This document shows positions 16,670-34,028 of a stretch of DNA of 64,000 nt, one piece after another. The position numbers were made by a program, and so were the translations under genes. Under the pieces are notes generated by a model. The model was not told the DNA's origin. It searched no databases and saw nothing but the letters and a program-made list of their open reading frames with translations. The DNA lies in IMG/VR virus record IMGVR_UViG_3300017755_000004, positions 1 through 64,000 of that record; one strand, given 5' to 3'. Numbering within the stretch: the first letter of the stretch is position 1; each line of letters begins with the position of its first letter. This DNA is from a virus.

Positions 16670-16713
16670 ACTGTCACAGGGGGTGGTCCGTTCGTTGGGT
16701 CATCCCCTATACT
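16670..16713 (+). promoter_or_regulatory. Box + 29 bp + -10 promoter before the CobT-like gene
   Basis: ACTGTCACAG (16670-16679) precedes TATACT (16708-16713), with exactly 29 bp between GTCACA and the -10. The ATG at 16735 follows 21 bp later. Just upstream is a small hairpin, GGCAC-CCT-GTGCC (16648-16660), that may end the fibre transcript. It is one of 13 such modules in 16.6-34.1 kb. Confidence 0.6.
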
Positions 16714-16734
16714 TGTATCAGTTGAGAGGAACGC

Positions 16735-17103
16735 ATGATTAATCAGGAGATCAAAGGCAATCTCGCAAAACTGCTCGCCACCGAGAATCTTATCGTTGAG
16801 CATCGCACGGTGCCTACAGCGTCATTTGATACTCTTCGCCGTGTTCTGACCTTACCTGTCTGGGATAAGGCGTCAGCGACCGTATACGATATGCTGGTGG
16901 GGCATGAGGTAGGACATGCATTATACACTCCTGATATTGATTGGCGTGAGTCTGTTCGTAACAATGTTCCTAAAGACTTTGTGAATGTTGTTGAGGATGC
17001 TCGTATTGAGAAACTTATGAAGCGTAAGTTTCCTGGTCTCTCTCGTAGTTTCTATCAGGGTTATGAAGAACTGAATGATCAGGACTTCTTTGAGATTCAA
17101 TAA
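16735..17103 (+). CDS. N-terminal HExxH metallopeptidase-like part of a CobT-like protein, cut by an in-frame stop
   Basis: The product is 122 aa, ending at TAA 17101-17103. It contains GHEVGHALYTPD (a HExxH zinc-site motif), then VNVVEDARIEKLMKRKFPG, a typical downstream Glu-bearing helix. This is the front of the cyanophage 'peptidase' family, which continues into a CobT-like VWA domain. The reading frame continues unbroken after the stop (IN AEN at 17104 on), and the following ORF is in the same frame, so one T>C or T>G change at 17101 would restore a roughly 717-aa protein. The start is supported by GAGAGGA 5-11 bp upstream. It may be a sequencing error, a real split, or a readthrough site. 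Confidence 0.75.
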   Translation: MINQEIKGNLAKLLATENLIVEHRTVPTASFDTLRRVLTLPVWDKASATVYDMLVGHEVGHALYTPDIDWRESVRNNVPKDFVNVVEDARIEKLMKRKFPGLSRSFYQGYEELNDQDFFEIQ

Positions 17104-17118
17104 ATCAACGCTGAGAAT

Positions 17119-18885
17119 TTGTCGTTCATTGATCGTATCAACCTTCACTTCAAGGTTGGTGCTTTCGCTATGATTCCTTTCGCCAATGACATTGAGCAGC
17201 AATTTGTTGCTCGTGTAGGTGATGCTGAGACATTTGAAGAAGTTCTTGCTATCTGTGAAGATATTGTTGACTACCTGAAAGAACAGGAGAAGCAACAGAC
17301 ACCCGCTCCTATGCCCCCACAACAGCAGGGACAGCAGGGTGAGACTGAAGAACAGGGAGAGGAAGAGAATCAACAGGGAGAGGTTCAGGGTGAAGAGACT
17401 AATCAGGATGCTGAGCGTGCTGATTTAGACACACCTTCTTATAGCAATGGTGCTGCTGATACTTGTGATGAGAATGAGTCTATGACTCAACGTGCTTTTG
17501 ATGAGAATGCTGAAGATCTTGCTAATCAGTCTGAATATGCTAACCAGACTGAGTATGTAGAACTGCCTGAGTTGTATATGGATAATATCATTGTTGATTC
17601 TAAAGTTCTGACTCCTTATATTACTAAAAAATTTACTGCTGCACAGCAAGAACGTATGCAGCACTGGGGTGATGTTTTTGAGCAGGTTGACAATGCATAT
17701 AAAACATACAAGAAATCTTCTTTAAAAGAAGTCAACTATCTTGTAAAGGAGTTTGAGTGTAAGAAATCTGCTGATGCTTATGCTCGTCAAGCAACATCTC
17801 GTACTGGTGTGCTTAATACTAAAATGTTGCACACATACAAGTACAATGAAGATCTGTTCAAAAAAGTAACTGTTCTTCCTGACGGTAAGAATCATGGCAT
17901 GATTTTCGTGCTGGATTGGTCTGGTTCTATGGGAGATGTTATTCTTGATACTGTAAAGCAACTGTTAAATCTAACATGGTTCTGTAAGAAAGTGCAGATC
18001 CCCTTTGAGGTTTATGCTTTCACTAATGAGTGGCATCCTGTTTTCACTGATCCTGATTATGACAGCACAGATGGTCTTCCAGAGAAATCAATAAAGAAAG
18101 CAGGTACGATTGATGTTAATAAGCACTTTACTCTGCTGAATGTGCTTAGTTCCCGTACTAATGCTAAGCAGTTTGAGGAACAGTGTATTAATCTGTTCCG
18201 TTGCACCTACACTTTCAAGTATTCTTGCTGGTATAGAGTTCCTGCTGGTCTGGGACTGTCTGGCACACCTCTGAATGAGAGTATCATCGCACTTAACACT
18301 ATCATCCCTAAGTTCAAGAGCGATAATAAACTTCAAAAGGTGAACTGTGTCATTCTTACTGATGGAGAAGGTTGTGATCTTGCCTATCATTATGAATATC
18401 CTTATGGTGCAAATGGTCTTGGTCGCCGTCGTTGCACTGGATCTGCTACTCTACGTGATCGTCAACTTGGTCGCACATACAAAGAGTTCTCTACATGGGG
18501 TGGTGATTATGAACAATCTTTGACCGCTATTCTGCTTCAAAATCTGAAGGATCGCAACCCTGATGTTAATATCTTAGGATTTCGTATTTGTTCTGGTTCT
18601 GACTTCTCCCGCTTCTATCGTTACGTTAGCAATGGTCGTTCTTACATGGAACTTCCTGAGAATATCATGAAGAACTGGCGCAAATTCAAATCCATTGAGA
18701 TGAGTTTTGTTGCTGGTTATGATTCATTCTATGCTATTTCTGCCTCTGGTATGAATGTTGAGACTGAGTTCAATGTTGCTGATGATGCCAGTGTTGCTGA
18801 GGTTCGTAAAGCATTTCGTGACAATTTGAAGAAGAAGACCACCAACAAGAAACTTCTCTCCTCCTTTGCTTCACTTGTCTCTTGA
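17119..18885 (+). CDS. CobT-like VWA-domain protein (C-terminal part)
   Basis: The ORF is 588 aa from a TTG at 17119, 15 bp after an in-frame TAA and in the same frame as the HExxH ORF. It has a short helical region, then a Gln/Glu-rich acidic linker (about 55-105) as in CobT, a helical middle, and a von Willebrand A domain starting about residue 259. The MIDAS motif is VLDWSGSMGD (DxSxS), with a threonine-containing GLSGTPL loop and VNCVILTDGEG further on. CobT/VWA proteins pair with MoxR/CobS AAA+ ATPases, and the cobS-like gene lies 1.1 kb downstream. The target substrate in the cell is unknown. Annotating it as cobalt chelation would be speculative. Confidence 0.8.
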   Translation: MSFIDRINLHFKVGAFAMIPFANDIEQQFVARVGDAETFEEVLAICEDIVDYLKEQEKQQTPAPMPPQQQGQQGETEEQGEEENQQGEVQGEETNQDAERADLDTPSYSNGAADTCDENESMTQRAFDENAEDLANQSEYANQTEYVELPELYMDNIIVDSKVLTPYITKKFTAAQQERMQHWGDVFEQVDNAYKTYKKSSLKEVNYLVKEFECKKSADAYARQATSRTGVLNTKMLHTYKYNEDLFKKVTVLPDGKNHGMIFVLDWSGSMGDVILDTVKQLLNLTWFCKKVQIPFEVYAFTNEWHPVFTDPDYDSTDGLPEKSIKKAGTIDVNKHFTLLNVLSSRTNAKQFEEQCINLFRCTYTFKYSCWYRVPAGLGLSGTPLNESIIALNTIIPKFKSDNKLQKVNCVILTDGEGCDLAYHYEYPYGANGLGRRRCTGSATLRDRQLGRTYKEFSTWGGDYEQSLTAILLQNLKDRNPDVNILGFRICSGSDFSRFYRYVSNGRSYMELPENIMKNWRKFKSIEMSFVAGYDSFYAISASGMNVETEFNVADDASVAEVRKAFRDNLKKKTTNKKLLSSFASLVS

Positions 18886-18910
18886 CAGATGAGACATCTG
18901 CCTTTATAAT
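18867..18910 (+). promoter_or_regulatory. Box + 29 bp + -10 promoter with TTGACA and spacer hairpin
   Basis: TGCTTCACTT (18867-18876) is a degenerate box 29 bp before TATAAT (18905-18910). TTGACA (18882-18887) sits exactly 17 bp before the same -10, giving a near-perfect sigma-70 promoter. The spacer contains a perfect hairpin, CAGATG-AGA-CATCTG (18886-18900). The -35 and box lie inside the end of the VWA gene. The start at 18929 follows 18 bp after the -10. Confidence 0.75.
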
Positions 18911-18928
18911 TACTATACACATGAACTC

Positions 18929-19426
18929 ATGAAAATGCACCAACGGGAACTTTTAGAAGCTAGAAACTATTGTGAACTTTACAACTGCTATGCATTATGG
19001 ATTACAGACAACCGTCAATTCTTTACTACGGGATCTCATGCGGTAAGGAAAGCTGATAATCAGGTCAAAAAACCATATGGTTTCCGTTCCTACTTAAAGA
19101 CATTCTTGAAAACTGAGTATGAAATTCATAGTGCAGAGCAACATGCTTCTGAATATCTTACTGATCATCCTGATGAGTTCATTAAGAATGCAGATATTTT
19201 TGCTAGGCAGTTTCCTAACATCATTAAGAATCGTCAAGAGAACCTGAAACAGAAGGAAACTATGTCTAGTGCTACACTGAATGAGCATTTTGAACAGTTG
19301 TCTGTGGACCTTGTGCCTAGATCTGATGAGACTGTGACTGAGACTGAGACTGAACGTCTACTCGCCATGGCACAGAGACATGGTGCAAAGATGTTTAAGA
19401 AAGGAGACCTGGAAATCCATTTCTGA
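18929..19426 (+). CDS. Unknown protein
   Basis: This 165-aa protein is mostly helical. Its beginning (MKMHQRELLEARNYCELYNCYALWITDNRQ) has a compact N-terminal domain, and it ends with an acidic Thr/Glu linker and KKGDLEIHF. An alternative ATG lies at 18935. It has its own promoter (18867-18910) and ends 5 bp before a 2OG oxygenase gene, so the two are probably cotranscribed. No family is recognised. Confidence 0.7.
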   Translation: MKMHQRELLEARNYCELYNCYALWITDNRQFFTTGSHAVRKADNQVKKPYGFRSYLKTFLKTEYEIHSAEQHASEYLTDHPDEFIKNADIFARQFPNIIKNRQENLKQKETMSSATLNEHFEQLSVDLVPRSDETVTETETERLLAMAQRHGAKMFKKGDLEIHF

Positions 19427-19430
19427 AACT

Positions 19431-19910
19431 ATGATTGAGATATTTGATAATTTTTTATCTGAAGTTGATTATAAAGATGTAGTAAGATACTGCATGACAG
19501 CACCATATCTTTATGGTGAGGTTGATCATCCCGGTGCAAAACCTACTGGTATGATTCATTCCATTGAGGAGGCAAGTTGGATTTACGAATTGTTTCGTTA
19601 TAAACTTGACGAGATTGTTGATATAACTGAGCATCCATTTGATAGAATGTATGTAAATTGTTTCGCTGCTGGTGAGAGTCCAGACTATCATGTTGATGGT
19701 AGGCAAGGTTATACGTTTCTATTCTATGCTAATCAAAAATGGAATCTAAAAATGCAGGGAGAGACACAATTCTTAATTGATAATCAAATTACAGGAGTTC
19801 TTCCTTATTCAAACAGAATGGTTCAATTTGATGCAACTTTAAGGCATCGCGCTACATCGTTCACAAACCGACACCGATTTACCCTAGCGGTAAAATACGG
19901 TTCCCAATAG
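19431..19910 (+). CDS. 2OG-Fe(II) oxygenase
   Basis: The protein has 159 aa. Iron ligands fit HVD (His87, Asp89 in SPDYHVDG) and His139 (DATLRHRATSF), with Arg147/Arg149 in TNRHRFTLAV as 2-oxoglutarate binder. Such enzymes hydroxylate proteins, nucleic acids or small molecules using O2 and 2OG. The frame is open further upstream, but I chose ATG 19431 because it follows the stop of the previous gene and gives the usual family beginning (MIEIFDNFL, as in 'I.vidnfLs'). It is one of eight such genes in the window. The substrate is unknown. Confidence 0.78.
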   Translation: MIEIFDNFLSEVDYKDVVRYCMTAPYLYGEVDHPGAKPTGMIHSIEEASWIYELFRYKLDEIVDITEHPFDRMYVNCFAAGESPDYHVDGRQGYTFLFYANQKWNLKMQGETQFLIDNQITGVLPYSNRMVQFDATLRHRATSFTNRHRFTLAVKYGSQ

Positions 19911-19921
19911 ACAGTTTGTAA

Positions 19922-19965
19922 ACTGGCACAGGGTCTCGCCCACGACCCTTCAAATACTGTATATT
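19922..19965 (+). promoter_or_regulatory. Box + 29 bp + -10 promoter before the CobS-like gene
   Basis: ACTGGCACAG (19922-19931) and TATATT (19960-19965) are separated by 29 bp counted from GGCACA. ATG 19994 follows 28 bp later. It shares this architecture with the promoter of the VWA partner gene, suggesting co-regulation. Confidence 0.65.
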
Positions 19966-19993
19966 AACATTGTTCGCAACCGAGACACACCAC

Positions 19994-21097
19994 ATGCCAC
20001 GTAAGATCAACATTGATATGAACGCTCTGACCGCATTCATCTCAACTCACTATGGTGATGAGTTTAGTGGTGATGCAGTTCGTGCCGCCGCTACTGAGTT
20101 TGGTGTTACCTATCCTACCATCATGAAGCGCGTTGAGCAGTATAAGGTTGGTTATGGCAAGTGGAATCTCTCTGTTCAAGAGAAACTAGAGCAAACTTAC
20201 GCTGCTCCTGCTGCTGTTTCTGAGTCTGTTGTTCAAAATCTTGTTCCTACTAAGGACGATACTTTTGTTCCATTCGGTAACTTTACCGATATGAAGAAGA
20301 TCATAAGCTCTAAGATCTTCTACCCTGTGTTCGTTACTGGTATGTCTGGTAATGGTAAGACCCTCAGTGTTGAACAGGCATGTGCTGCACTTGGTCGCGA
20401 ACTTATCCGTGTCAATCTCACTATTGAGACTGATGAGGATGATCTGATCGGTGGATTCCGTTTGGTCAATGGTAACACCGTATGGCATAATGGTCCTGTG
20501 ATTGAAGCATTAGAGCGTGGTGCTATTTTGTTGTTGGATGAGATTGATCTTGCTAGCAACAAAGTTATGTGCTTACAATCTATTCTTGAGGGTAAAGGTG
20601 TGTTCCTCAAGAAGACTGGTCAATATGTAAAACCCGCTGCTGGTTTTAATGTCATCGCCACTGCCAATACTAAAGGTAAGGGTTCTGATGACGGTCGTTT
20701 CATCGGTACTAATGTACTGAATGAGGCATTCCTTGAGCGTTTCGCTCTCACCTTTGAGCAGGAATATCCTACTCCTAAAGTTGAGCAACGTATTCTTGAG
20801 GGTATATCTCATGAACTTGGTCTAGAAGATCGTGAGTTCTGTGAGAAACTTGCTCAGTGGGCAGATATTATTCGTAAGACCTTCAATGACGGAGGCATTG
20901 ATGAAGTGATCTCAACACGTCGCCTGGTCCACATCATCCGTGCCTACGCTATTTTCAACAAACGCATGAAGTCTATTGAGGTTTGTGTGAACCGTTTTGA
21001 TGAGGAAACTAAAACTTCTTTCATTGAACTGTATGACAAACTTGACGCTAGCGTTGGTGAGGAAACCGAAAAGGTTGACACACCACAAACTTTCTGA
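19994..21097 (+). CDS. cobS: CobS/MoxR-like AAA+ ATPase
   Basis: The protein has 367 aa from ATG 19994 (an in-frame ATG at 19970 would add 8 residues). Residues 25-55 look like the HTH-like N-terminal domain of CobS (AAATEFGVTYPTIMKRVEQY). Walker A is GMSGNGKT (116-123), Walker B is ILLLDEID (178-185), the sensor 1 region is FNVIATANT, and LNEAFLERF carries the likely arginine finger. It is annotated in many cyanophages as CobS, the chelatase subunit for cobalamin synthesis. Its pairing with a VWA/HExxH protein equally fits a MoxR-VWA chaperone or protease-activating system. The start choice follows the promoter position and the conserved MPRKINID beginning. Confidence 0.9.
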   Translation: MPRKINIDMNALTAFISTHYGDEFSGDAVRAAATEFGVTYPTIMKRVEQYKVGYGKWNLSVQEKLEQTYAAPAAVSESVVQNLVPTKDDTFVPFGNFTDMKKIISSKIFYPVFVTGMSGNGKTLSVEQACAALGRELIRVNLTIETDEDDLIGGFRLVNGNTVWHNGPVIEALERGAILLLDEIDLASNKVMCLQSILEGKGVFLKKTGQYVKPAAGFNVIATANTKGKGSDDGRFIGTNVLNEAFLERFALTFEQEYPTPKVEQRILEGISHELGLEDREFCEKLAQWADIIRKTFNDGGIDEVISTRRLVHIIRAYAIFNKRMKSIEVCVNRFDEETKTSFIELYDKLDASVGEETEKVDTPQTF

Positions 21098-21101
21098 TAC
21101 A

Positions 21102-21108
21102 ATAAATA
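21102..21108 (+). promoter_or_regulatory. Late-type promoter motif upstream of the secreted beta-barrel gene
   Basis: ATAAATA occurs 65 bp upstream of ATG 21174 and directly after the cobS stop. A TTGACC-containing inverted repeat (GTCTT...AAGAC, 21112-21133) follows. AAGGAG at 21159-21164 is a clear ribosome binding site for the gene. Confidence 0.4.
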
Positions 21109-21173
21109 CAACGTCTTGACCTAACGTTAAGACTTATTACAAACAACTCATCTCACTAAGGAGAATTATTTAA

Positions 21174-21545
21174 ATGTTCAAATCTGTATTCGCAGCAACC
21201 GCTGCTCTGTTCGCTTCTGCTGGTGCTGCTTTCGCTGGTCCCTACGTCAACGTAGAAACAAATGCTGGCTGGACTGGATCCGAGTATAACGGCGCTGGAA
21301 CAGACCTTCACGTAGGGTACGAAGGTGCTCTTGGTGAAGCTGGTTCTTACTACGTCCAGGGCGGTGCTACCGTGCTGACTCCCGATGGTGGTGACGCTGA
21401 TACCGTCCCTTCAGGTAAGGCAGGTCTGGGTCTCGGTTTGACCGACAACCTCGGTGCATATGGTGAAGTATCCTTCGTAGGTTCAGGCGACGAAGATCTT
21501 GACCGTGGTTATGGAGCAAAATTGGGTGTGAAGTACAACTTCTGA
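21174..21545 (+). CDS. Secreted porin-like/outer-membrane beta-barrel-like protein
   Basis: The protein has 123 aa. A canonical signal peptide (MFKSVFAATAALFASAGAAFA, cleavage likely before GPYV) is followed by about 100 residues of amphipathic beta-strands (YVNVETNAGWTGS, LHVGYEG, YYVQGGATVL, GLGLGLTDNLGAYGEVSFVG), ending in YGAKLGVKYNF with a terminal Phe as in outer-membrane proteins. It is too short for a full porin, so an 8-strand or oligomeric barrel is plausible. The role may be host envelope remodelling or superinfection exclusion, but this is inference. It has a strong RBS (AAGGAG) and its own terminator. Confidence 0.72.
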   Translation: MFKSVFAATAALFASAGAAFAGPYVNVETNAGWTGSEYNGAGTDLHVGYEGALGEAGSYYVQGGATVLTPDGGDADTVPSGKAGLGLGLTDNLGAYGEVSFVGSGDEDLDRGYGAKLGVKYNF

Positions 21546-21552
21546 TCTGTGC

Positions 21553-21558
21553 TATAAT
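21553..21558 (+). promoter_or_regulatory. Possible -10 element before the terminator and tRNA-Ser
   Basis: GCTATAATTTAG contains a perfect TATAAT. Transcription would start within the following hairpin and run into tRNA-Ser. No -35 or upstream box is evident. Confidence 0.35.
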
Positions 21559-21562
21559 TTAG

Positions 21563-21582
21563 GGGTCTTCGGACCCTTTTTT
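21563..21582 (+). terminator. Rho-independent terminator
   Basis: GGGTC and GACCC form a stem around a TTCG tetraloop (21563-21576), followed by six T (21577-21582). It terminates the secreted-protein transcript just before tRNA-Ser. Confidence 0.85.
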
Positions 21583-21585
21583 GCT

Positions 21586-21670
21586 GGAAGGTTGGCAGAG
21601 CGGTTTATTGCACCAGTCTTGAAAACTGGAGAGGATCACACCTCCGTGAGTTCAAATCTCACATCTTCCT
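21586..21670 (+). tRNA. tRNA-Ser (UGA)
   Basis: The acceptor stem GGAAGGT (21586-21592) pairs with ATCTTCC (21663-21669). The anticodon arm CCAGT-CTTGAAA-ACTGG has anticodon TGA. A long variable arm (GAGGATCACACCTC) and a T-arm with GTTCAAATC are present. About 85 nt is the expected size for serine. CCA is not encoded. It reads TCA/TCT-type serine codons, frequent in the AT-rich structural genes. Confidence 0.93.
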
Positions 21671-21711
21671 TTGGAGTTATCTCCACCCCCCATTACCTAC
21701 ATTTTTTTCTC

Positions 21712-21897
21712 ATGAGCGATCTCAACCAAGTAGAAAACATTCTGTGTGACATTGATGGATTGATTGGTGCTGCCCTGGAGGCAGGAGACAGTGAGAATGC
21801 TCGTGCCCTGGTAGAAGAATTTGGTGAGTGGTTCCTAGATTATGAGAGCGAGAAAGATATTGAGGTCATGTGCCTGGAGGTATTGAGCGAGCAATGA
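21712..21897 (+). CDS. Small acidic protein of unknown function
   Basis: This 61-aa acidic, helical protein starts MSDLNQVENILCDIDG. The frame is open upstream through the tRNA, but ATG 21712 is the first start after it. It overlaps the next gene by 4 bp (ATGA). Function unknown. Confidence 0.7.
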   Translation: MSDLNQVENILCDIDGLIGAALEAGDSENARALVEEFGEWFLDYESEKDIEVMCLEVLSEQ

Positions 21898-22118
21898 TAT
21901 ACTATGAACTCTCTATAGTAATCTTTGCATTTCTCATATTTTTAATTTACACAGACCCTACCGCTGCCCCATACTTTAATTTAATTTTTAAGGAAAGTTG
22001 GGTCAACGTTAGACGCTGGTTACTAATCGCTCGTTTGTATCCAAGAATTAAATTTGATACATGGATGATGAGGCGTAGAGTAGAAAAAATTAGAAAGCAG
22101 AAGAATGATATTGTATGA
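21894..22118 (+). CDS. Small membrane protein
   Basis: The protein has 74 aa. One transmembrane segment occurs near the N-terminus (LSIVIFAFLIFLIY, about residues 6-19), followed by a basic cytoplasmic tail (MMRRRVEKIRKQK). It is coupled to the upstream gene by an ATGA overlap and overlaps the oxygenase gene downstream. Function unknown. Confidence 0.65.
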   Translation: MIYYELSIVIFAFLIFLIYTDPTAAPYFNLIFKESWVNVRRWLLIARLYPRIKFDTWMMRRRVEKIRKQKNDIV

Positions 22119-22590
22119 TTATGTTTGGACTAAGGAGGAGTTAGAATTATATTCTAACTATCAGTGCAATCAGAAAGAACAGACGAAGTTTAGTTCTCGT
22201 AATGTTATTTGGTTGCCTTCTTATCCTGACACATCCAAACTTATTCAGACATATACCAAACAACTTTATCCATTGGTTGCTCAAGAGTTTCATCGTCAAC
22301 TCAATCGTGGTTATAAATTTGATGCTAAGATAGCAGAGTATAAAGATAACAATCATTACTTCTCATGGCATTCTGATGAAAGGTCTGAAGGTAACATGCA
22401 TAGAATGCTATCTACTATAACTTACCTTAATGATGATTTTGAATCAGGAGAGACTCAATTTATTGATCGTGTAATCACACCATCGGCAGGTAAAACTTTA
22501 ATGTTTCCATCTTCATTCAACTATCCTCATTGTGGTCTGCGTGTTACAAGAGGTATTAAAAAAATATTAGTAATGCACCTTTGGGTGTAA
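22105..22590 (+). CDS. 2OG-Fe(II) oxygenase, prolyl-4-hydroxylase-like
   Basis: The protein has 161 aa. The double-stranded beta-helix core shows FSWHSDE (His89, Asp91), ITYLNDDFESGETQF, PSAGKTLMFPSSFNYPHCG (distal His142) and RVTRGIKKILVMHLW. The last motif is normally PVTxGxRxxL.xW, so the 2OG-anchoring Arg appears to be Lys152 or Lys153 here. It overlaps the membrane-protein gene by 14 bp. It is a catalytically plausible P4H-type hydroxylase, with unknown target. Confidence 0.85.
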   Translation: MILYDYVWTKEELELYSNYQCNQKEQTKFSSRNVIWLPSYPDTSKLIQTYTKQLYPLVAQEFHRQLNRGYKFDAKIAEYKDNNHYFSWHSDERSEGNMHRMLSTITYLNDDFESGETQFIDRVITPSAGKTLMFPSSFNYPHCGLRVTRGIKKILVMHLWV

Positions 22591-22604
22591 AAAAGTGTTA
22601 TAAT
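22576..22604 (+). promoter_or_regulatory. Hairpin followed by -10 element
   Basis: CACC-TTTG-GGTG (22576-22587) at the end of the oxygenase gene is followed by TATAAT (22599-22604), 22 bp before ATG 22627. No ACTGKCACA box is found at the expected place, so this is a simpler promoter than the repeated module. Confidence 0.5.
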
Positions 22605-22626
22605 TAGTCATAGTTATGTTCATTAA

Positions 22627-22803
22627 ATGACGAACTACAACATAGTAATTAACGCCATTTCAAAAGAATTGCATAAGGTCTACCAACAGGACAACTGGAG
22701 TGAAAGTAATGCGAAACAAACATCATACAAGATCTTGACACTGGTAGAAGAATTCCAGAATTTAAAATCACAACCACTACCAAGATGGAGAGCAAGCGAC
22801 TAA
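22627..22803 (+). CDS. Small protein of unknown function
   Basis: This 58-aa helical protein starts MTNYNIVINAISKELHKVYQ. It follows a TATAAT by 22 bp and overlaps the next start (TAATG). No family is recognised. Confidence 0.6.
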   Translation: MTNYNIVINAISKELHKVYQQDNWSESNAKQTSYKILTLVEEFQNLKSQPLPRWRASD

Positions 22804-23254: not shown

Positions 23255-23255
23255 C

Positions 23256-27005: not shown

Positions 27006-27192
27006 TGATTTTGTAAAGGGACAACGATTCCTCTACACTTCTAATGGTTTTGATCACGATGGTGTAGTAAACTTCATTGATGATGTTGGTGGAAAGTATA
27101 TTACATTGACAGTTGGACCGAGTAATCTAGTGATCTATCCAGAATGGTGGGACAGATTGACCCCAATTGACAATCCCCCCTGTGACACTTAA
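26995..27192 (+). CDS. Small beta-rich protein of unknown function
   Basis: This 65-aa protein starts MKISDFVKGQRFLYTSNG and appears to be a small SH3-like beta-barrel (GQRF...GVVNFIDDVGGKYITLTV). It overlaps cp12 by 11 bp, so it is in the cp12 operon. It is followed by a terminator/promoter. Function unknown. Confidence 0.65.
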   Translation: MKISDFVKGQRFLYTSNGFDHDGVVNFIDDVGGKYITLTVGPSNLVIYPEWWDRLTPIDNPPCDT

Positions 27193-27195
27193 TGA

Positions 27196-27239
27196 ACTGG
27201 TTCAGCATCCTTGACAGGGTGCTTTTTTTATGCCATACT
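27196..27239 (+). promoter_or_regulatory. Box + 29 bp + -10 promoter merged with terminator
   Basis: ACTGGTTCAG (27196-27205) lies 29 bp before CATACT (27234-27239). TTGACA (27211-27216) lies 17 bp before the same -10. ATG 27264 follows 24 bp later. Confidence 0.6.
27204..27229 (+). terminator. Rho-independent terminator with TTGACA loop
   Basis: AGCATCC (27204-27210) pairs with GGGTGCT (27217-27223) around a TTGACA loop, followed by T 27224-27229. It ends the cp12 operon. The loop doubles as a -35 element of the next promoter. Confidence 0.85.
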
Positions 27240-27263: not shown

Positions 27264-27848
27264 ATGTTTGACAATCTTTTCGCTGATGGTAGTCTCCGCT
27301 CCTATGTTGACAGCAATCTGAGTGATCCTTGGGTAGGTACACCTTTTGAGGGTTATGTGTTCATGTCACCTAAGCAGAAGGGTGAGTTTGGTGAGCGTTT
27401 TGTGTCTAAGTTCATGGAGAACATGCTCTGTGAAGTCAAACGTGCCGCAACATCTACGGCAGGACATGATCGTGTGATCAGTAATATCCTCACAGAGATT
27501 AAGTTCTCTATCGCCACTCGCGCTAAAAAAGGTGGTGTGATCGTTGATAAGTTCATCATTAATCATGTTTCCGTATGTAAGGATTGGGAACGCCTGATCT
27601 TCTGCGGAATTAATCCTTCTGAGCAGGACATTCGCGTGTTCTACATCACTAAAGAAGATTTTGAAGCACACTTGAAGAGTGATGATTGCTTGTTCAATGT
27701 GCAACAGGGTGGACAGAGTGGCGGTAATGATGATTACATCTGCACCAACGTTGCAGCACTGATGCAGACTGCCATCGCTCGCCCCATTGTCCAGTGGTCC
27801 TGTGACAGTTCCCAAACTGGTACTAAGACCCTTGGCATCGCTGCCTGA
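27264..27848 (+). CDS. PD-(D/E)XK nuclease-like protein
   Basis: The protein has 194 aa from ATG 27264 (the frame is open upstream but only through the promoter). The segment GEFGERFVSKFMENM, then AGHDRVISNILTEIKFS, fits a PD-(D/E)XK core: Glu44, Asp69, then Glu78-x-Lys80 on adjacent strands, as in restriction-endonuclease-like proteins that see DNA ends. The C-terminal half is of mixed composition. It could degrade host DNA or process phage DNA. This is a motif-based call without sequence-search support. Confidence 0.5.
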   Translation: MFDNLFADGSLRSYVDSNLSDPWVGTPFEGYVFMSPKQKGEFGERFVSKFMENMLCEVKRAATSTAGHDRVISNILTEIKFSIATRAKKGGVIVDKFIINHVSVCKDWERLIFCGINPSEQDIRVFYITKEDFEAHLKSDDCLFNVQQGGQSGGNDDYICTNVAALMQTAIARPIVQWSCDSSQTGTKTLGIAA

Positions 27849-27859
27849 TGCCCTATAAT
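27816..27859 (+). promoter_or_regulatory. Box + 29 bp + -10 promoter
   Basis: ACTGGTACTA (27816-27825) lies 29 bp before TATAAT (27854-27859). TTGGCA (27832-27837) is a -35 at 16 bp. GGCATC/GATGCC (27834-27839, 27847-27852) form an inverted repeat between them. ATG 27883 follows 23 bp after the -10, behind AAGGAA. Confidence 0.65.
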
Positions 27860-27882
27860 TAATTCATCAACCAAGGAACCCC

Positions 27883-28134
27883 ATGCAACTCACTACACTC
27901 GTCACCACGGTTGATTTCTTTCCTGAGGCATTCATCGCTGAAGAGTCTGGCACTGTCGTCAAGCGTTTCCAGAAGCGTGTCACCTGGAATGCTAACGGTC
28001 TCAAGTCCTACAGCACTGTCACCATGCTCACAGCACGTAATGAGTGGGCAGAGCGTATCGCTAACGGTGCTGAGGTAACTAACTACAACGTAGAGCAGAT
28101 GCCACGCTCTGAGTATGCTCCGATGACCTGCTGA
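27883..28134 (+). CDS. Small beta-rich protein of unknown function
   Basis: The protein has 83 aa. It starts MQLTTLVTTVDFFPEAFIAE and has strands followed by a helix. An AAGGAA ribosome site precedes it. Its TGA overlaps the next ATG. No recognised family. Confidence 0.7.
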   Translation: MQLTTLVTTVDFFPEAFIAEESGTVVKRFQKRVTWNANGLKSYSTVTMLTARNEWAERIANGAEVTNYNVEQMPRSEYAPMTC

Positions 28135-28298
28135 TGCATACTAACTACGCTCTACATGGGGATAACATTATCCCCTATTATTCTATCCAAGAGTGGGTAA
28201 ACAATTGGGACGAATTGTTTGAGCGGGTTGAAGTTGATCGTGAAACCATTGGTATCTACGATAACAACAAGTATTGCTTATTCGTTCCATTCTCCTAG
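28134..28298 (+). CDS. Small protein of unknown function
   Basis: The protein has 54 aa, from ATG 28134 (overlapping the previous stop) to TAG 28296-28298. It starts MHTNYALHGDNIIPYYSI and ends NKYCLFVPFS. It is translationally coupled to the gene before it. Function unknown. Confidence 0.6.
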   Translation: MHTNYALHGDNIIPYYSIQEWVNNWDELFERVEVDRETIGIYDNNKYCLFVPFS

Positions 28299-28356
28299 GC
28301 TGCACAGTATTAAGCGTAAGACCTAGACAAACAAACACTAACATTTTTTTATCATC

Positions 28357-28614
28357 ATGATCGTGAACGCTCCTATCGCTCGTATTCTCACTGCTGAACA
28401 ATCCAGTGCAGTTGCATTCATCAAGATTGAAGATGCAGTTGTAACTATTTCATATCAGTCTAATCCTGATAAAATGTATGAGTTCACCAGCGAATCTCAG
28501 GCATTTGTATCACAACTGACTCAGATTGTTGAAGCAGAAGATCTTATGGGCATGTCACTGGGCGGTATTGTAGCAGATGCTCGCCGCGTCGGTGATCTGG
28601 TCCAGTCAGTCTGA
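28357..28614 (+). CDS. Small protein of unknown function
   Basis: The protein has 85 aa: MIVNAPIARILTAEQSS, then VVTISYQSNPDKMYEF, a beta-hairpin loosely like KTSC-type domains, then a helix. The 58-bp upstream gap has a T-rich run but no convincing -10. It is followed immediately by a promoter module. Function unknown. Confidence 0.65.
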   Translation: MIVNAPIARILTAEQSSAVAFIKIEDAVVTISYQSNPDKMYEFTSESQAFVSQLTQIVEAEDLMGMSLGGIVADARRVGDLVQSV

Positions 28615-28616
28615 TA

Positions 28617-28660
28617 AGTGGCACAGGGACGCTCCTAGCGTCCTCTCAGTGCTCTATAAT
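28617..28660 (+). promoter_or_regulatory. Box + 29 bp + -10 promoter with internal hairpin
   Basis: AGTGGCACAG (28617-28626) lies 29 bp before TATAAT (28655-28660). GGACGCT-CCT-AGCGTCC (28627-28643) is a perfect hairpin between them. ATG 28682 follows 21 bp later. Confidence 0.7.
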
Positions 28661-28681
28661 TACTTCATAGGAACAAATCTC

Positions 28682-28882
28682 ATGAACAGAGAAACACTTC
28701 AATCCCAACTCATCCAGCAAACACTTGACGACATGGATTTAAAAACTGTAATGAGTGTTCTGTATGACTTCATGAATGAGTCTTACTCAAACTATTCTGA
28801 TGCTGAGATTACTGAAGAGGTTGAGGAGTATTATCCTGACCTACTAGATAGTGATCCTGATGAATCAACTGGTTGGAACTGA
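28682..28882 (+). CDS. Small acidic protein of unknown function
   Basis: This 66-aa helical, acidic protein starts MNRETLQSQLIQQTLDDMDL. The frame is open upstream into the promoter. ATG 28682 is chosen for its position 21 bp behind the -10. It overlaps the next start (TGATGA). Function unknown. Confidence 0.65.
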   Translation: MNRETLQSQLIQQTLDDMDLKTVMSVLYDFMNESYSNYSDAEITEEVEEYYPDLLDSDPDESTGWN

Positions 28883-29094
28883 TGACAAGTAAGTATCAAG
28901 TATGCGAGATCGCATTTAATTTTGAGGACAGTGATTTTGAACTGCCTCCAAACATTCAGGAAGAACTCATCACTGATTGTTTACATCGTGTCTGGCATTG
29001 TGATGAAGATGACCTAGTGGATGAGATTACAGAGTTCTATGGATTCAATGTTCAGAACATTGACTACGAGAAAAGATCTCAGGTAGAATCATGA
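28882..29094 (+). CDS. Small acidic protein of unknown function
   Basis: This 70-aa protein starts MTSKYQVCEIAFNFEDSDFE and is acidic, with WHCDEDDLVDEITEFYGF. It overlaps both neighbours by 1-4 bp, in a run of four coupled small genes. Function unknown. Confidence 0.65.
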   Translation: MTSKYQVCEIAFNFEDSDFELPPNIQEELITDCLHRVWHCDEDDLVDEITEFYGFNVQNIDYEKRSQVES

Positions 29095-29258
29095 TGGCAC
29101 AACAAACTCTTAGTATCACAGGTTTGCATTATGAAGAGTTAATTCTGTTGCAAGAATTGATGATCATGATTGACAACACTGATCTAATTGATCATCCTAT
29201 TCTCGTTGATGATCGTAAAACTTTCAATGAACTCTTCAACAAGGTAATGAGATCATGA
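29091..29258 (+). CDS. Small protein of unknown function
   Basis: This 55-aa protein starts MMAQQTLSITGLHYEELI and is mostly helical. It overlaps its neighbours by 4 bp at each end. Function unknown. Confidence 0.6.
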   Translation: MMAQQTLSITGLHYEELILLQELMIMIDNTDLIDHPILVDDRKTFNELFNKVMRS

Positions 29259-29398
29259 CTTACATTGTTAAAATGTATGCCGCTGGCAAACTATTTGAAG
29301 AAAAAGTAATCGCTGCTAACCCTCATGATGCTCGCACAACTGCACTCGCAAGGAACCCAACAGCAACAGTCGTGGGAGTCAATTTTTCATTCAAGTGA
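29255..29398 (+). CDS. Small protein of unknown function
   Basis: This 47-aa protein starts MTYIVKMYAAGKLFEEKVIA and reads as a strand, helix, strand unit. The ATG overlaps the preceding stop. Function unknown. Confidence 0.6.
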   Translation: MTYIVKMYAAGKLFEEKVIAANPHDARTTALARNPTATVVGVNFSFK

Positions 29399-29402
29399 AA
29401 TG

Positions 29403-29495
29403 ATGAATGAGACCATTGATGGTGCGATTGAAGATTATCACATCAATGAATTACAACGCCACGCTGAACTGTATGATGCACGAATTACCTACTGA
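29403..29495 (+). CDS. Possible very short gene
   Basis: This is a 30-aa ORF, MNETIDGAIEDYHINELQRH onward, starting 5 bp after the previous stop and ending 9 bp before the next membrane ORF. It fits the operon spacing, but its size leaves it doubtful. Confidence 0.35.
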   Translation: MNETIDGAIEDYHINELQRHAELYDARITY

Positions 29496-29503
29496 TTTCC
29501 CTT

Positions 29504-29701
29504 ATGAAGCACCATCAGGATACAGATACCGAACCGCTGAATTTAAACCAAATGTTATTAGCATCTGGTGTGACCATCTTAACCATTATAATTTCAATAG
29601 CGGCGCTACAGTCAGCACAATCTGGGGGTTTGTCAAATTTAAGACAACAAAGAGAGGCACTACGCACACTTACCATGCCCCCATCAGATCAAATAAGATA
29701 G
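29504..29701 (+). CDS. Small membrane protein
   Basis: The protein has 65 aa, with a hydrophilic start and one transmembrane segment (MLLASGVTILTIIISIAALQ, about residues 17-36), then LSNLRQQREALRTL. A longer ORF in another frame (29407-29826) covers the same bases but lacks coherent protein features. The membrane segment makes this one the better choice. Function unknown. Confidence 0.5.
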   Translation: MKHHQDTDTEPLNLNQMLLASGVTILTIIISIAALQSAQSGGLSNLRQQREALRTLTMPPSDQIR

Positions 29702-29756
29702 GTAAGATCGTAGCACTAGATCAGACTAGTGCATACAGTGCCATGCCACTTCTTAA

Positions 29757-29801
29757 ACTGTCACTGGATCCCACCGATGACGCCCCAGCATCTGTTATGA
29801 T
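29757..29801 (+). promoter_or_regulatory. Box + 30 bp + -10 promoter
   Basis: ACTGTCACTG (29757-29766) lies 30 bp before TATGAT (29796-29801). ATG 29827 follows 25 bp later. This position argues that the downstream gene starts at 29827 rather than at the far-upstream in-frame ATG. Confidence 0.55.
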
Positions 29802-29826
29802 TAATTCATCAGCAAAGGACACCACC

Positions 29827-30234
29827 ATGACCACCACCACATTCAACCAAGATCAAGCATTCTATAATAGTAAAGAATTTTCTGACTACTGTGCTCAGAA
29901 GGATGCACAGAACACCAACCAACTCAACGTCACTAAGTATGGTCTAATGTTGTGTGATGCACTGCAACAGTCACATCAGCGTTCACATCCTAATGGTCAG
30001 AACTATTCTTATGCATTAATCTCTTCTGGTCGTAAGTATCACAAGGTCATGCAATGTGTGAATGGTGAGACTGAATCAGTTCATGCCTTCATTGACAAGA
30101 AGACTGGTGAAGTATACAAGGCAGCATCATTCAAACAACCTGCTAAAGGAGTACGCTTTAATCTTCTCATTATCACCGAGCGTGAGTTTGTATTAGAGAA
30201 CTGTGATTGGGCAGGTGGTTATCTTTATAAGTAA
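29827..30234 (+). CDS. Unknown protein
   Basis: The protein has 135 aa from ATG 29827: MTTTTFNQDQAFYNSKEFSD. The middle has SYALISSGRKYHKVMQC, then SVHAFIDKKTGEVYKAASFK, a beta-hairpin motif seen in many small phage proteins. The frame is open to 29407, but a promoter at 29757-29801 and another plausible ORF there favour the short form. It is followed 23 bp later by an oxygenase. Function unknown. Confidence 0.65.
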   Translation: MTTTTFNQDQAFYNSKEFSDYCAQKDAQNTNQLNVTKYGLMLCDALQQSHQRSHPNGQNYSYALISSGRKYHKVMQCVNGETESVHAFIDKKTGEVYKAASFKQPAKGVRFNLLIITEREFVLENCDWAGGYLYK

Positions 30235-30257
30235 TATACAACAAGACCACAAACATT

Positions 30258-31001
30258 ATGTTTAACAACTACATTTATTATTCTGATGAACCTCTTCTAT
30301 CACAAGAATTTTGCGATAAACTAATTGCAAAGTTTAATACTGATAAGAATGTTCATCAGGGTGTATGTGGTCATAAAGATGGTCCTCCTCAAGTAAATCT
30401 AAAGATTAAACAGTCTACTGATCTACACATCTATAATAATCGTAAGTATCACTTTGAATCACAAGAACTACAACGTGTTATTCTAAAGACTCTTGCAACA
30501 TATACTGATCTCATTACTGATCAATGTCCTGATCTAATTTATCCACTGTTTCGTAAGAACTCTTATATCACAGGATTTAACGTACAGAAGACTACACCTG
30601 GAGGATTCTTTAAATGGCATAGTGATGACTATTATGATCCTAATGCTCATGAAGGTTATTGGAGAGCAATATCTTATCTAATCTATTTGAATGATGTAGA
30701 GGAAGGAGGAGAGACTGCATTTGTAGATGGTTTCAAAGCATTACCTAAGCGTGGTCATATTTGTTTCTTCCCTTGTACTTGGTCTTATGTTCATTGTGGG
30801 GTGCCTCCTATTAGTGGTGATAAGTATATTATTGCAGGTTGGTGGATGACTAATGCATCAATGGCATCACAGAGAGCAAACATTGCGGAAGTAGATAGAG
30901 ATGAGATGAGTGAGAAGGAGTATGGTATTAGATCTAGGTTACATGCATACGATCAAGAGGAGAGAGAACGTGATAAGTTCTACCGTAATAACCTTATCTA
31001 A
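30258..31001 (+). CDS. 2OG-Fe(II) oxygenase, P4H-like
   Basis: The protein has 247 aa. It has a complete catalytic set: FKWHSDDYY (His121, Asp123), ISYLIYLNDVEEGGETAF, KRGHICFFPCTWSYVHCG (His179), and GDKYIIAGWW, where Lys189 sits at the usual 2OG-binding basic position. The C-terminal about 50 residues are a charged helical tail (SEKEYGIRSRLHAYDQEERE). It is the longest oxygenase here and the last gene before the non-coding region. Target unknown. Confidence 0.85.
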   Translation: MFNNYIYYSDEPLLSQEFCDKLIAKFNTDKNVHQGVCGHKDGPPQVNLKIKQSTDLHIYNNRKYHFESQELQRVILKTLATYTDLITDQCPDLIYPLFRKNSYITGFNVQKTTPGGFFKWHSDDYYDPNAHEGYWRAISYLIYLNDVEEGGETAFVDGFKALPKRGHICFFPCTWSYVHCGVPPISGDKYIIAGWWMTNASMASQRANIAEVDRDEMSEKEYGIRSRLHAYDQEERERDKFYRNNLI

Positions 31002-31004
31002 GTA

Positions 31005-31036
31005 ACTCCGAAGGTACTGTGGGGTGTATTCGGAGT
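31005..31036 (+). terminator. Hairpin after the P4H-like gene, possible terminator
   Basis: ACTCCGAA (31005-31012) and TTCGGAGT (31029-31036) form an 8-bp stem around a 16-nt loop, 3 bp after the stop. No T run follows. A late-type TATAAATG motif (31040-31047) starts just after. Confidence 0.5.
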
Positions 31037-31219
31037 ATATTATAAATGTCATTTTAAATATACTTAAGTTTTCCACATGCCTGTGGATAATGTGTGGAAA
31101 AAGGTGTGGAATACTTGATAATGTGCGGATGTCCTTCTGTCTTAGCGTGCATCGTACCGATTGTCAACCCATAGTATAAGAACTTCACAGATATGTCAGA
31201 AGGTTCTCACAGTTGGCAC

Positions 31220-31248
31220 TTGACAAACCTCCGAGATCCTTATATAAT
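31220..31248 (+). promoter_or_regulatory. Consensus sigma-70 promoter P1
   Basis: TTGACA (31220-31225), a 17-bp spacer and TATAAT (31243-31248). This is a perfect match to the bacterial housekeeping promoter, so the host polymerase should use it immediately after infection. It reads towards the structured block and tRNA-Leu. Confidence 0.85.
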
Positions 31249-31307
31249 AACTCTGTAGGGTTTCAAAGGTCAGTCCCTATGAGGCATTCCGAGGAATCTT
31301 ATAGAAC

Positions 31308-31336
31308 TTGACAAATCCTCAGTTCTACAGTATTAT
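31308..31336 (+). promoter_or_regulatory. Near-consensus sigma-70 promoter P2
   Basis: TTGACA (31308-31313), 17 bp and TATTAT (31331-31336). It lies 88 bp downstream of P1 in the same orientation. Its -10 is inside the inverted-repeat block. Confidence 0.75.
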
Positions 31337-31417
31337 AATAACTGAGGGTTTTATAGTTTCTGAGAAACTTATAGAATCTCAGAAACTGTAGAACCTGAGG
31401 AATTATAAAAACCTCAG
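31317..31417. repeat. Nested inverted repeats (alternative hairpins)
   Basis: CCTCAGTTCTACAG (31317-31330) pairs with CTGTAGAACCTGAGG (31386-31400, one extra base). Inside, AGTTTCTGAGA (31355-31365) pairs perfectly with TCTCAGAAACT (31377-31387). CCTCAGT/ACTGAGG (31317-31323 / 31341-31347) and CTGAGG/CCTCAG (31395-31400 / 31412-31417) give competing stems. Confidence 0.8.
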
Positions 31418-31482
31418 AAATCTTAAAAGTTAAGTATTTAAGAACTTCACAGTACTGTGGAAAACTTTATATTTAACTAATT

Positions 31483-31568
31483 AGGACTATGGTGAAATTG
31501 GTAAACACAACAGACTTAAAATCTGTCAGATTTAAATATCTTTGTCAGTTCAAGTCTGACTAGTCCTA
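31483..31568 (+). tRNA. tRNA-Leu (UAA)
   Basis: The acceptor stem AGGACTA (31483-31489) pairs with TAGTCCT (31561-31567), with discriminator A. The anticodon arm CAGACTTAAAATCTG has anticodon TAA. A long variable arm and T-arm (GTTCAAGTC) are present. CCA is not encoded. It reads TTA, a common leucine codon in the structural genes. Confidence 0.93.
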
Positions 31569-31621
31569 TAGAGAATATTATACTAAATATTCTCAAATTA
31601 ATAACACTTACAAAGACTACA

Positions 31622-31780
31622 ATGTCTTCTTCAAACAAGTTTGAGTACTATTTTGAGACTGCTGATGGAGTAAATCAAGAAGGATTTGTGACAGCAAATA
31701 CTCACCAAAATGCAGTCAAGAAGGTCAAAAAAGAATATAAGAAACTTAAAATTACTTACCTTGATGTTCAACCACTATGA
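31622..31780 (+). CDS. Small protein of unknown function
   Basis: This 52-aa protein starts MSSSNKFEYYFETADGVNQE and has a basic middle (AVKKVKKEYKKLK). It starts 53 bp after tRNA-Leu and overlaps the next start by 4 bp (ATGA). Function unknown. Confidence 0.65.
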   Translation: MSSSNKFEYYFETADGVNQEGFVTANTHQNAVKKVKKEYKKLKITYLDVQPL

Positions 31781-32031
31781 AAACTAGACCGATGACTATT
31801 GACAACTATGTTGTATGCGAAGGTTATGCATACTGGGAAAAAGATGGCAACTATTACACAACAACAGTTGACAAGAAGAACAACATCAACTGGGCAAATG
31901 CTTCTCGGATTGATATTAAATCCCCTGGTGGACTTGATATCACTAGTGTACATCAACTGTATGATTGCCTCCACACAATCAAATCAACACAACGACAGTT
32001 ACTTAACGAAACTCGTAAAGTTGCCGTTTAA
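31777..32031 (+). CDS. Small protein of unknown function
   Basis: The protein has 84 aa. Its beginning, MKTRPMTIDNYVVCEGYAYW, then NYYTTTVDKKNNINW, is beta-rich, followed by a helical end. It is coupled to the gene before it. Function unknown. Confidence 0.65.
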   Translation: MKTRPMTIDNYVVCEGYAYWEKDGNYYTTTVDKKNNINWANASRIDIKSPGGLDITSVHQLYDCLHTIKSTQRQLLNETRKVAV

Positions 32032-32035
32032 TACT

Positions 32036-32188
32036 ATGCATGAATCAACTCTAGATCTCTTCTGTGATGATAACAACTCAGATGAAGATAATCATATCTT
32101 TGCAGAAGAATTCGCTGCTAGTTTAGAAGAACGTGCTGCATTCTATGAAGTTACTGTAGACTACTACATGGAAGAGTTTCTAACATAA
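32036..32188 (+). CDS. Small acidic protein of unknown function
   Basis: The protein has 50 aa: MHESTLDLFCDDNNSDEDNH, then a Glu-rich helix. The frame is open much further upstream (to 31799), but only as a shadow of the previous gene. ATG 32036 is 5 bp after its stop. Function unknown. Confidence 0.55.
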   Translation: MHESTLDLFCDDNNSDEDNHIFAEEFAASLEERAAFYEVTVDYYMEEFLT

Positions 32189-32219
32189 ACTGATTCAGCC
32201 GACCGTGGACGATTCGCGA

Positions 32220-32263
32220 ACTGTCACATGGTAGCATGTCAGGGGTCGGTGCTGCTGTAGGAT
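32220..32263 (+). promoter_or_regulatory. Box + 29 bp + -10 promoter
   Basis: ACTGTCACAT (32220-32229) lies 29 bp before TAGGAT (32258-32263). ATG 32287 follows 23 bp later. Confidence 0.5.
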
Positions 32264-32286
32264 GACTTCAGTTGAGAGAAAAACCA

Positions 32287-32454
32287 ATGTGGGATGAGAT
32301 TCAGGACATGATGGGAGAGATCTTTGATATGGGAGATGTCACCGATGACATCCCGTCCATCCTCTCGTTTGATTGTGACATTGACGACAGAGACGCCATG
32401 CCTCTGGACATGCAAGACGACATTGAGAAGGAAGACCCTCTGCTGGACGATTGA
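32287..32454 (+). CDS. Very acidic small protein
   Basis: The protein has 55 aa from ATG 32287 (a TTG at 32272 would add 5): MWDEIQDMMGEIFDMGD, ending EKEDPLLDD. Nearly a third of residues are D/E, which suggests a DNA mimic or a partner of a basic protein, but there is no direct evidence. Function unknown. Confidence 0.6.
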   Translation: MWDEIQDMMGEIFDMGDVTDDIPSILSFDCDIDDRDAMPLDMQDDIEKEDPLLDD

Positions 32455-32457
32455 CGA

Positions 32458-32500
32458 ACTGTCACCCTAGCGTGGCACAGCACTCAAAATCCTCTATTGT
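32458..32500 (+). promoter_or_regulatory. Box + 28 bp + -10 promoter
   Basis: ACTGTCACCC (32458-32467) lies 28 bp before TATTGT (32495-32500). A second box-like CGTGGCACAG is at 32471-32480. The -10 is only 6 bp from ATG 32507 but 33 bp from the in-frame ATG 32534. Confidence 0.45.
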
Positions 32501-32506
32501 AGACAC

Positions 32507-32740
32507 ATGAACAAATTCAAAGATCCCTGCACCATGGCACTTGAGACTGATGAGGTTCTGATGAACATTCATAACCCCTACGTGGCAAACCTCGTAGAGA
32601 TGGGATACGATCGTGCCGACTGTGAGATGGTCGCCGCTGCTGGTCGTGATGCCTCATACCCTCGCACGATCTACGGTCGCACCTTTGAGACTAAAGCAGA
32701 ATACGATGAGGCACTCGCAGACTACCTGAACGGTCTGTGA
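32507..32740 (+). CDS. Small protein of unknown function
   Basis: The protein has 77 aa from ATG 32507, or 68 aa from ATG 32534 (MALETDEVLMNIHNPYV). The promoter position favours the shorter form, or a leaderless mRNA. It is helical, with GYDRADCEMVAAAGRDASYP. It lies in the more GC-rich island. Function unknown. Confidence 0.65.
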   Translation: MNKFKDPCTMALETDEVLMNIHNPYVANLVEMGYDRADCEMVAAAGRDASYPRTIYGRTFETKAEYDEALADYLNGL

Positions 32741-32750
32741 CGATCCACAA

Positions 32751-32794
32751 GGTGGCACACAACTGGTTGTGCTGCCTCTCATCCCCTGTATTAT
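32751..32794 (+). promoter_or_regulatory. Box + 29 bp + -10 promoter with hairpin
   Basis: GGTGGCACAC (32751-32760) lies 29 bp before TATTAT (32789-32794). CACAAC-TG-GTTGTG overlaps the box. ATG 32823 follows 28 bp later. Confidence 0.65.
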
Positions 32795-32822
32795 AAAGAA
32801 GTCAACCAAACCGACACCAAAC

Positions 32823-33149
32823 ATGCGTAAGATTGAAACCCAGATGAACGCTGCCATCACAGCGAACAAGAACTGGAGCAACGCTAACACTCAAGTTGTC
32901 ACCGAAGGCACCATCTCCACTGTGTATCTTCATGGTAACAAGATTGCAAAGGTTGGTGATGATTTTGTCACTGTATTTGATGGAGGTTGGCAGTCTAACA
33001 CCACCAAGTCTCGTTTGAATGCTATCATCAACGAGTTCTGCAATTCATTCACTGACGGTGTATTTCAGAAGGACTATCAGTGGTTCATTCGTGACAACAA
33101 AGTTGTTCATGATTTCGTTAACGGATTCACATTTTGTGAGTACGCTTAA
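32823..33149 (+). CDS. Conserved phage-type small protein (VYLHGN / GGW motifs)
   Basis: The protein has 108 aa from ATG 32823. STVYLHGNKIAKV, then FDGGWQSNTTKSRLNAI, is a motif pair found in a widespread family of small phage proteins of unknown function. It has its own promoter module and a strong terminator, so it is expressed as a single-gene unit. Confidence 0.7.
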   Translation: MRKIETQMNAAITANKNWSNANTQVVTEGTISTVYLHGNKIAKVGDDFVTVFDGGWQSNTTKSRLNAIINEFCNSFTDGVFQKDYQWFIRDNKVVHDFVNGFTFCEYA

Positions 33150-33153
33150 GTGA

Positions 33154-33176
33154 GAGGGGTATATCCCCTCTTTTTT
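33154..33176 (+). terminator. Rho-independent terminator
   Basis: GAGGGG (33154-33159) and CCCCTC (33165-33170) around TATAT, followed by six T (33171-33176). Confidence 0.9.
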
Positions 33177-33229
33177 ATTGTCTCCACTAAGTAACACTAA
33201 CTGGTCGGCTGCCTGTGGACGATCGCCCT

Positions 33230-33273
33230 AGTGGCACACAAGACCTAGCATCACCTCTCACAGCCCCTATAAT
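33230..33273 (+). promoter_or_regulatory. Box + 29 bp + -10 promoter
   Basis: AGTGGCACAC (33230-33239) lies 29 bp before TATAAT (33268-33273). ATG 33297 follows 23 bp later. Confidence 0.7.
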
Positions 33274-33296
33274 AAGGACATCAAGCGAACCACACC

Positions 33297-33491
33297 ATGA
33301 CACGATCAAAAGCAATCTCATCACTGATCTCCATGTTCTGTGAGAAGAATGACCAGACTGAAGCACCCCTCTGGTTAGTAGAGTTGTATCACCGCTCCTC
33401 TGATCACGACCTGTGCCTCATGCTGATCAACTGGTCTAAGTCCTATCCTCAGGGATGGAATCGTTTCGGTTACTATCCCATGGGAGTGTGA
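33297..33491 (+). CDS. Small protein of unknown function
   Basis: This 64-aa helical protein starts MTRSKAISSLISMFCEKNDQ and continues with LWLVELYHRSSDHDLCLMLI. It is monocistronic between two promoter modules. Function unknown. Confidence 0.65.
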   Translation: MTRSKAISSLISMFCEKNDQTEAPLWLVELYHRSSDHDLCLMLINWSKSYPQGWNRFGYYPMGV

Positions 33492-33501
33492 CAGGCAGGG
33501 A

Positions 33502-33545
33502 ACTGTCCCCAGAACCCCTAGATCCCTAGGGTGACCGACTAGAAT
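33502..33545 (+). promoter_or_regulatory. Box + 29 bp + -10 promoter
   Basis: ACTGTCCCCA (33502-33511) lies 29 bp before TAGAAT (33540-33545). ATG 33571 follows 25 bp later. The 14-base stretch GACCGACTAGAATT around the -10 is repeated exactly at the 33985-34028 promoter. Confidence 0.6.
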
Positions 33546-33570
33546 TTAAAAGAACAAACGAACCGACACC

Positions 33571-33834
33571 ATGCGATTCAAGATCAACACCGATCAATCC
33601 AGTTCAGTTGACACGCTCAAGGTCAATCCTATCACAGGAACCGCTCGCGTCACCTGGAAATCTCGCGATAATTATGAGAGCTGTGAGTATCGCTGCACCA
33701 AGGTATCACGCCGTAAGATCCTCGCCCTGATGCTGGATTCTGATCGTTCCCTCGGACGATGGGTCAACCGCCATGCACAGTGGAAAGACTACGTTATCAA
33801 GAGCGGTCGCATTCACTCCATTCGCTTTAACTGA
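33571..33834 (+). CDS. Small basic protein of unknown function
   Basis: The protein has 87 aa and a KTSC-like beginning: MRFKINTDQSSSVDTLKVNP, then GTARVTWKSRDNYESCEYRC, then a helix and IHSIRFN. It is basic and beta-rich, so it may bind nucleic acid. Function unknown. Confidence 0.65.
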   Translation: MRFKINTDQSSSVDTLKVNPITGTARVTWKSRDNYESCEYRCTKVSRRKILALMLDSDRSLGRWVNRHAQWKDYVIKSGRIHSIRFN

Positions 33835-33836
33835 TC

Positions 33837-34010
33837 ATGCAACGTACAGGATTTTTCATTCATAGCGACAACCCCTCCCCTCTGATGACTAAGGTCATGG
33901 AGAACATCCAACGCCAGCACCTAGCAGAGACCGAACGTCGCCAGCGTATCAGAGCAGGACTTGAGCCAGGTGGACAGTGGACGACCTGGCACATCAGCGA
34001 CAGACATTGA
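33837..34010 (+). CDS. Small basic protein of unknown function
   Basis: The protein has 57 aa: MQRTGFFIHSDNPSPLMTKV, then an Arg-rich helix (HLAETERRQRIRAG). It starts 2 bp after the previous stop. The next promoter box lies inside its 3' end. Function unknown. Confidence 0.6.
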   Translation: MQRTGFFIHSDNPSPLMTKVMENIQRQHLAETERRQRIRAGLEPGGQWTTWHISDRH

Positions 34011-34028
34011 CCGCTGACCGACTAGAAT
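33985..34028 (+). promoter_or_regulatory. Box + 29 bp + -10 promoter
   Basis: CCTGGCACAT (33985-33994), inside the preceding gene, lies 29 bp before TAGAAT (34023-34028). ATG 34059 follows 30 bp later. Confidence 0.65.

Follow-up and report, generated by a model that had tools for sequence, protein, structure and literature searches.

A 24-bp palindrome at a fixed distance from the -10 element marks a putative promoter class of cyanomyophages

Analysis of a 64,000-nucleotide stretch of viral DNA (the window; positions 1 to 64,000 of the 65,522-base IMG/VR virus record IMGVR_UViG_3300017755_000004), whose relatives are the T4-like cyanophages, revealed a 24-bp palindrome, TGTGACAGTT-N4-AACTGKCACA, whose 10-bp arms flank a 4-bp gap and which lies 28-30 bp upstream of a -10 hexamer. 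Comparison of phage genomes indicates that this element is real and widespread among cyanomyophages. We propose, with a probability of roughly 0.6, that it marks a phage promoter class in which a putative dimeric activator, bound to the palindrome at about -53.5, aids the host sigma-70 type RNA polymerase. The element bears on how cyanomyophages take over transcription without MotA and AsiA, and a defined palindrome with fixed spacing provides bait for the factor and a route to regulon lists in sequenced phages.

The palindrome and its sites in the window

An earlier sequence-only reading of the window had listed 13 boxes near ACTGKCACA, each followed about 29 bp downstream by a -10-like hexamer and soon after by an ATG. 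This arrangement holds at 12 of the 13 positions (Table 1), including the two departures noted in that reading: site 32458 is best at 28 bp and site 29757 at 30 bp, with the other 10 at 29 bp. The box taken there for the whole element is present but forms only the right half of the palindrome; the left arm, where one G and one C never vary among the 12 sites, had been overlooked. The remaining position, 18867, was rejected as a member because its dyad score is -22 to -23; it reads TTGACA-17-TATAAT, a consensus sigma-70 promoter.

Table 1 Palindrome and -10 elements in the window (sites named by box start)
Box	Dyad	-10 element	Span	Strand	Downstream or remark
16670	16655-16678	TATACT 16708-16713	16655..16713	+	before peptidase gene (phrog_459)
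19922	19907-19930	TATATT 19960-19965	19907..19965	+	before CobS-like gene (phrog_249)
27196	27181-27204	CATACT 27234-27239	27181..27239	+	before phrog_6927 gene, start likely 27264
27816	27801-27824	TATAAT 27854-27859	27801..27859	+	ATG 27883
28617	28602-28625	TATAAT 28655-28660	28602..28660	+	ATG 28682
29757	29742-29765	TATGAT 29796-29801	29742..29801	+	30-bp spacer; ATG 29827, within long open frame
32220	32205-32228	TAGGAT 32258-32263	32205..32263	+	weak -10
32458	32443-32466	TATTGT 32495-32500	32443..32500	+	weak -10; 28-bp spacer
32751	32736-32759	TATTAT 32789-32794	32736..32794	+	
33230	33215-33238	TATAAT 33268-33273	33215..33273	+	
33502	33487-33510	TAGAAT 33540-33545	33487..33545	+	-10 under strict threshold
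33985	33970-33993	TAGAAT 34023-34028	33970..34028	+	-10 under strict threshold

The region of the window devoted to tail and baseplate contains no site, in line with what the reading had observed for baseplate genes. Its proposal of a regulon in the accessory part, with structural genes left free, also fits Syn9, in which 0 of 9 elements lie inside 58309-119028. The CobS-like gene named for this regulon does follow an element; endonuclease V (nuclease-like, 19380-19910) is not directly behind one.

By eye, most of the 12 sites have no TTGACA 17 bp ahead of the -10 element. TTGACA occurs in or near the -35 place at two sites, and at site 27196 it stands 17 bp ahead of the -10 (by eye).

The peptidase gene (window 16735-18885) is interrupted by an in-frame stop, either a mutation or an assembly error; the frame is open in a 177,686-base IMG/VR record (G001) that matches the window at 97.6-99.9% in the main blocks. 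At 29407-30234 a single open frame spans matches to two separate families, phrog_573 and phrog_818, and the element at 29742 lies between them. A consensus sigma-70 promoter, TTGACA-17-TATAAT, was seen by eye at 31220-31248 within an approximately 350-base stretch containing repeats.

Constancy of spacing exceeds chance

An early strict pattern gave no match in the window's own genome and eight other records, and was replaced by matrices. For the strict matrix we used 29 elements, none from the window phage or its near kin and each differing by at least six mismatches from every window dyad. All 12 window dyads score 14-24 bits with this matrix, and 8 of the 12 pass both thresholds on the + strand when a -10 is required at 28-30 bp, compared with a mean of 0.09 per strand and a maximum of 2 in 100 Markov-1 simulations, which bears out the earlier contention that the spacing is too constant for chance. 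The -10 is weak in this test at 32220, 32458, 33502 and 33985. On the + strand, spacings from 5 to 65 outside 28-30 yielded three single matches; the - strand gave seven, of which two share spacing 32. When no -10 is required, dyads scoring more than 10 bits number 15 on the + strand (12 being the listed sites) and 13 on the - strand (simulated mean 3.2, maximum 7). An earlier matrix that still included near kin (L005-L007) recovered 10 of the 12 sites against a null of 0.04; the strict figures (8/12, null 0.09) come from the run without L001-L008.

Spread among phages

In the G001 record all 11 dyad-plus-(-10) matches of a matrix scan fall within the stretch covered by the window. Among loci selected for CobS, 72 of 80 carry one or more dyads that score above 12 bits, and several of the eight dyad-less loci end at or near CobS.

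We then consider 12 phage genomes scanned with a matrix, an approach the sequence-only reading had itself suggested. The full arrangement of dyad, spacer and -10 is found again in Syn9, S-PM2, P-TIM40, P-HM2, P-SSM2, P-SSM4 and S-SKS1, and S-TIM5 carries a variant. Pairs at spacings 28/29/30 total 17/80/29, and any other spacing from 5 to 65 gives at most 11. By genome the counts are g001 0/9/1, Syn9 2/7/0, S-PM2 2/8/4, P-TIM40 2/11/2, P-HM2 2/3/7, P-SSM2 2/16/3, P-SSM4 0/10/2, S-SKS1 4/10/3, S-TIM5 1/4/7, AG-345-F15 (a partial genome) 2/1/0, HTVC008M 0/1/0 and T4 0/0/0; spacing 30 is favoured in P-HM2 and S-TIM5, the single match in the pelagiphage HTVC008M is chance-like, and T4 has no pair at these three spacings. 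Because g001, Syn9 and IMG/VR loci formed part of the matrix training they are not independent; the seven other cyanophage isolates lay outside it. A promoter class with a common upstream element, as first suggested from the window, thus finds support across many phages.

A second unselected view comes from 217 dyad readings in both directions, in which the best -10 lies at offset 53 in 77, 54 in 22 and 52 in 8. A set of 55 elements was drawn from 120 in which a -10 stood at offset 52-54, by removing 18 wrong-way rows and reducing the remaining 102. As the -10 offset served for selection, the spacing (43/7/5) and -10 logo of this set in part reflect the way it was built. Positions +6, +7 and +8 past the -10, which lie outside this selection, show C in 29, A in 39 and T in 45 of the 55, a preference that looks as at a start site.

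Proposed mechanism and alternatives

If transcription starts, as predicted, seven bases past the -10, the dyad occupies -65 to -42. The box alone would lie at -50 to -42, but the centre of the palindrome, at about -53.5, does not support the class II activator position assigned earlier. In the mechanism that we infer, a dimeric DNA-binding activator, phage-carried or delivered with the virion and not an ordinary host regulator, would occupy the palindrome and help host RNA polymerase begin at -10 elements mostly without a -35, and the downstream genes would be early. Counting against this mechanism are the four window sites with a weak -10 and the two that have a TTGACA at or close to the -35 position. 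It is conceivable, though less likely than not, that the T4-like and S-TIM5 lineages of cyanomyophages share an activator dissimilar to MotA, carried by the phage or injected, which reprograms the host RNA polymerase at palindromes centred at -53.5.

The factor might instead belong to the host, the phage having copied the binding site of a host transcription factor, an explanation that we regard as rather unlikely. Early genes need a factor that is there from the outset, a point in favour of a host or virion protein, and among the scanned phages the element was found only in those of cyanobacteria, the related pelagiphage being without it. A loose form of the dyad gave 16 matches, spread over 13 of 121 host-family genomes, versus 4 of 121 genomes for a control pattern, a mild excess; but none of 13 such loci, one per genome, has a -10 at 28-30 bp. 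Moreover, none of three host genomes (WH7803, RCC307 and WH5701) gave a match at E<=10, whereas 9 of 9 phage controls matched at E<=0.3. The element is likewise missing from podoviruses and a siphovirus that infect such hosts: none was found, even at lower thresholds, in P-SSP7 (45,000 of 45,176 bases), Syn5 (all) or PSS2 (100,000 of 107,530). These host-genome negatives lean toward a phage-carried factor, which we consider more likely than a host one. Three GC-rich host-family loci (L310, L311 and L312) contain dyad-like palindromes without a -10.

Among candidates for the factor none stands out. No helix-turn-helix family was found among 10 conserved cyanophage proteins; the list of conserved proteins includes antisense frames. 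DUF1825, present in 8 of 12 records, was rejected as the factor: S-TIM5 lacks it despite carrying the variant element, and so does the partial genome. It is also absent from T4 and HTVC008M.

The palindrome would equally fit an operator at which a phage repressor later shuts these promoters off, as a dimeric regulator of either sign suits a palindrome at a fixed position. We think this improbable: the -35 is missing at most sites, and a site at about -53.5 lies upstream of the core of the polymerase footprint, a position more usual for activators. That the palindrome is an RNA hairpin ending the upstream message is very improbable despite its ten-pair stem and four-base loop, since dyad pairing is 64.2% versus 64.5% in shuffled rows, with no compensatory changes, which favours a DNA operator, and the distance to the -10 is fixed. 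By eye, many relatives have a terminator-like hairpin in the spacer, and the upstream gene can end on the TGA contained in the dyad.

Relation to known systems

Doron et al. 2016 (ISME J 10:1437) reportedly described a novel regulatory element for the early genes of cyanophage Syn9, conserved among T4-like cyanophages and also in P-TIM40. The dyad element is probably the same one, and it occurs in both phages, as would be expected. The earlier statement that no factor has been described may hold for the factor, but the element itself probably has been described; our literature search found no paper that prints the dyad motif.

As in T4 middle promoters, which depend on a MotA box near -30 and on AsiA, the -10 is kept and a putative activator site takes the place of the -35; in the cyanophages, however, the conserved element is palindromic and is centred at about -53.5, not near -30. 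CRP/FNR-type sites are likewise palindromes upstream of sigma-70 promoters, with the consensus forms TGTGA-N6-TCACA and GTA-N8-TAC, but the 24-bp dyad, with its 10-bp arms and 4-bp gap, matches neither. The GTA-N8-TAC form is given in a passage of PMC3037559. According to a review (PMC2984593), cyanomyoviruses are without motA and asi homologues, and a putative middle promoter was reported in P-SSM4 and Syn9 but not in P-SSM2 or S-PM2; the dyad element is present in all four. P-HM2 genes fall into early, middle and late clusters, as stated in an excerpt of PMC5082946. Lineage-specific spacer words (CACTACCG; CTACCATTTC) were seen by eye near -30 in P-TIM40 (46-55 kb) and P-SSM4 (44-50 kb).
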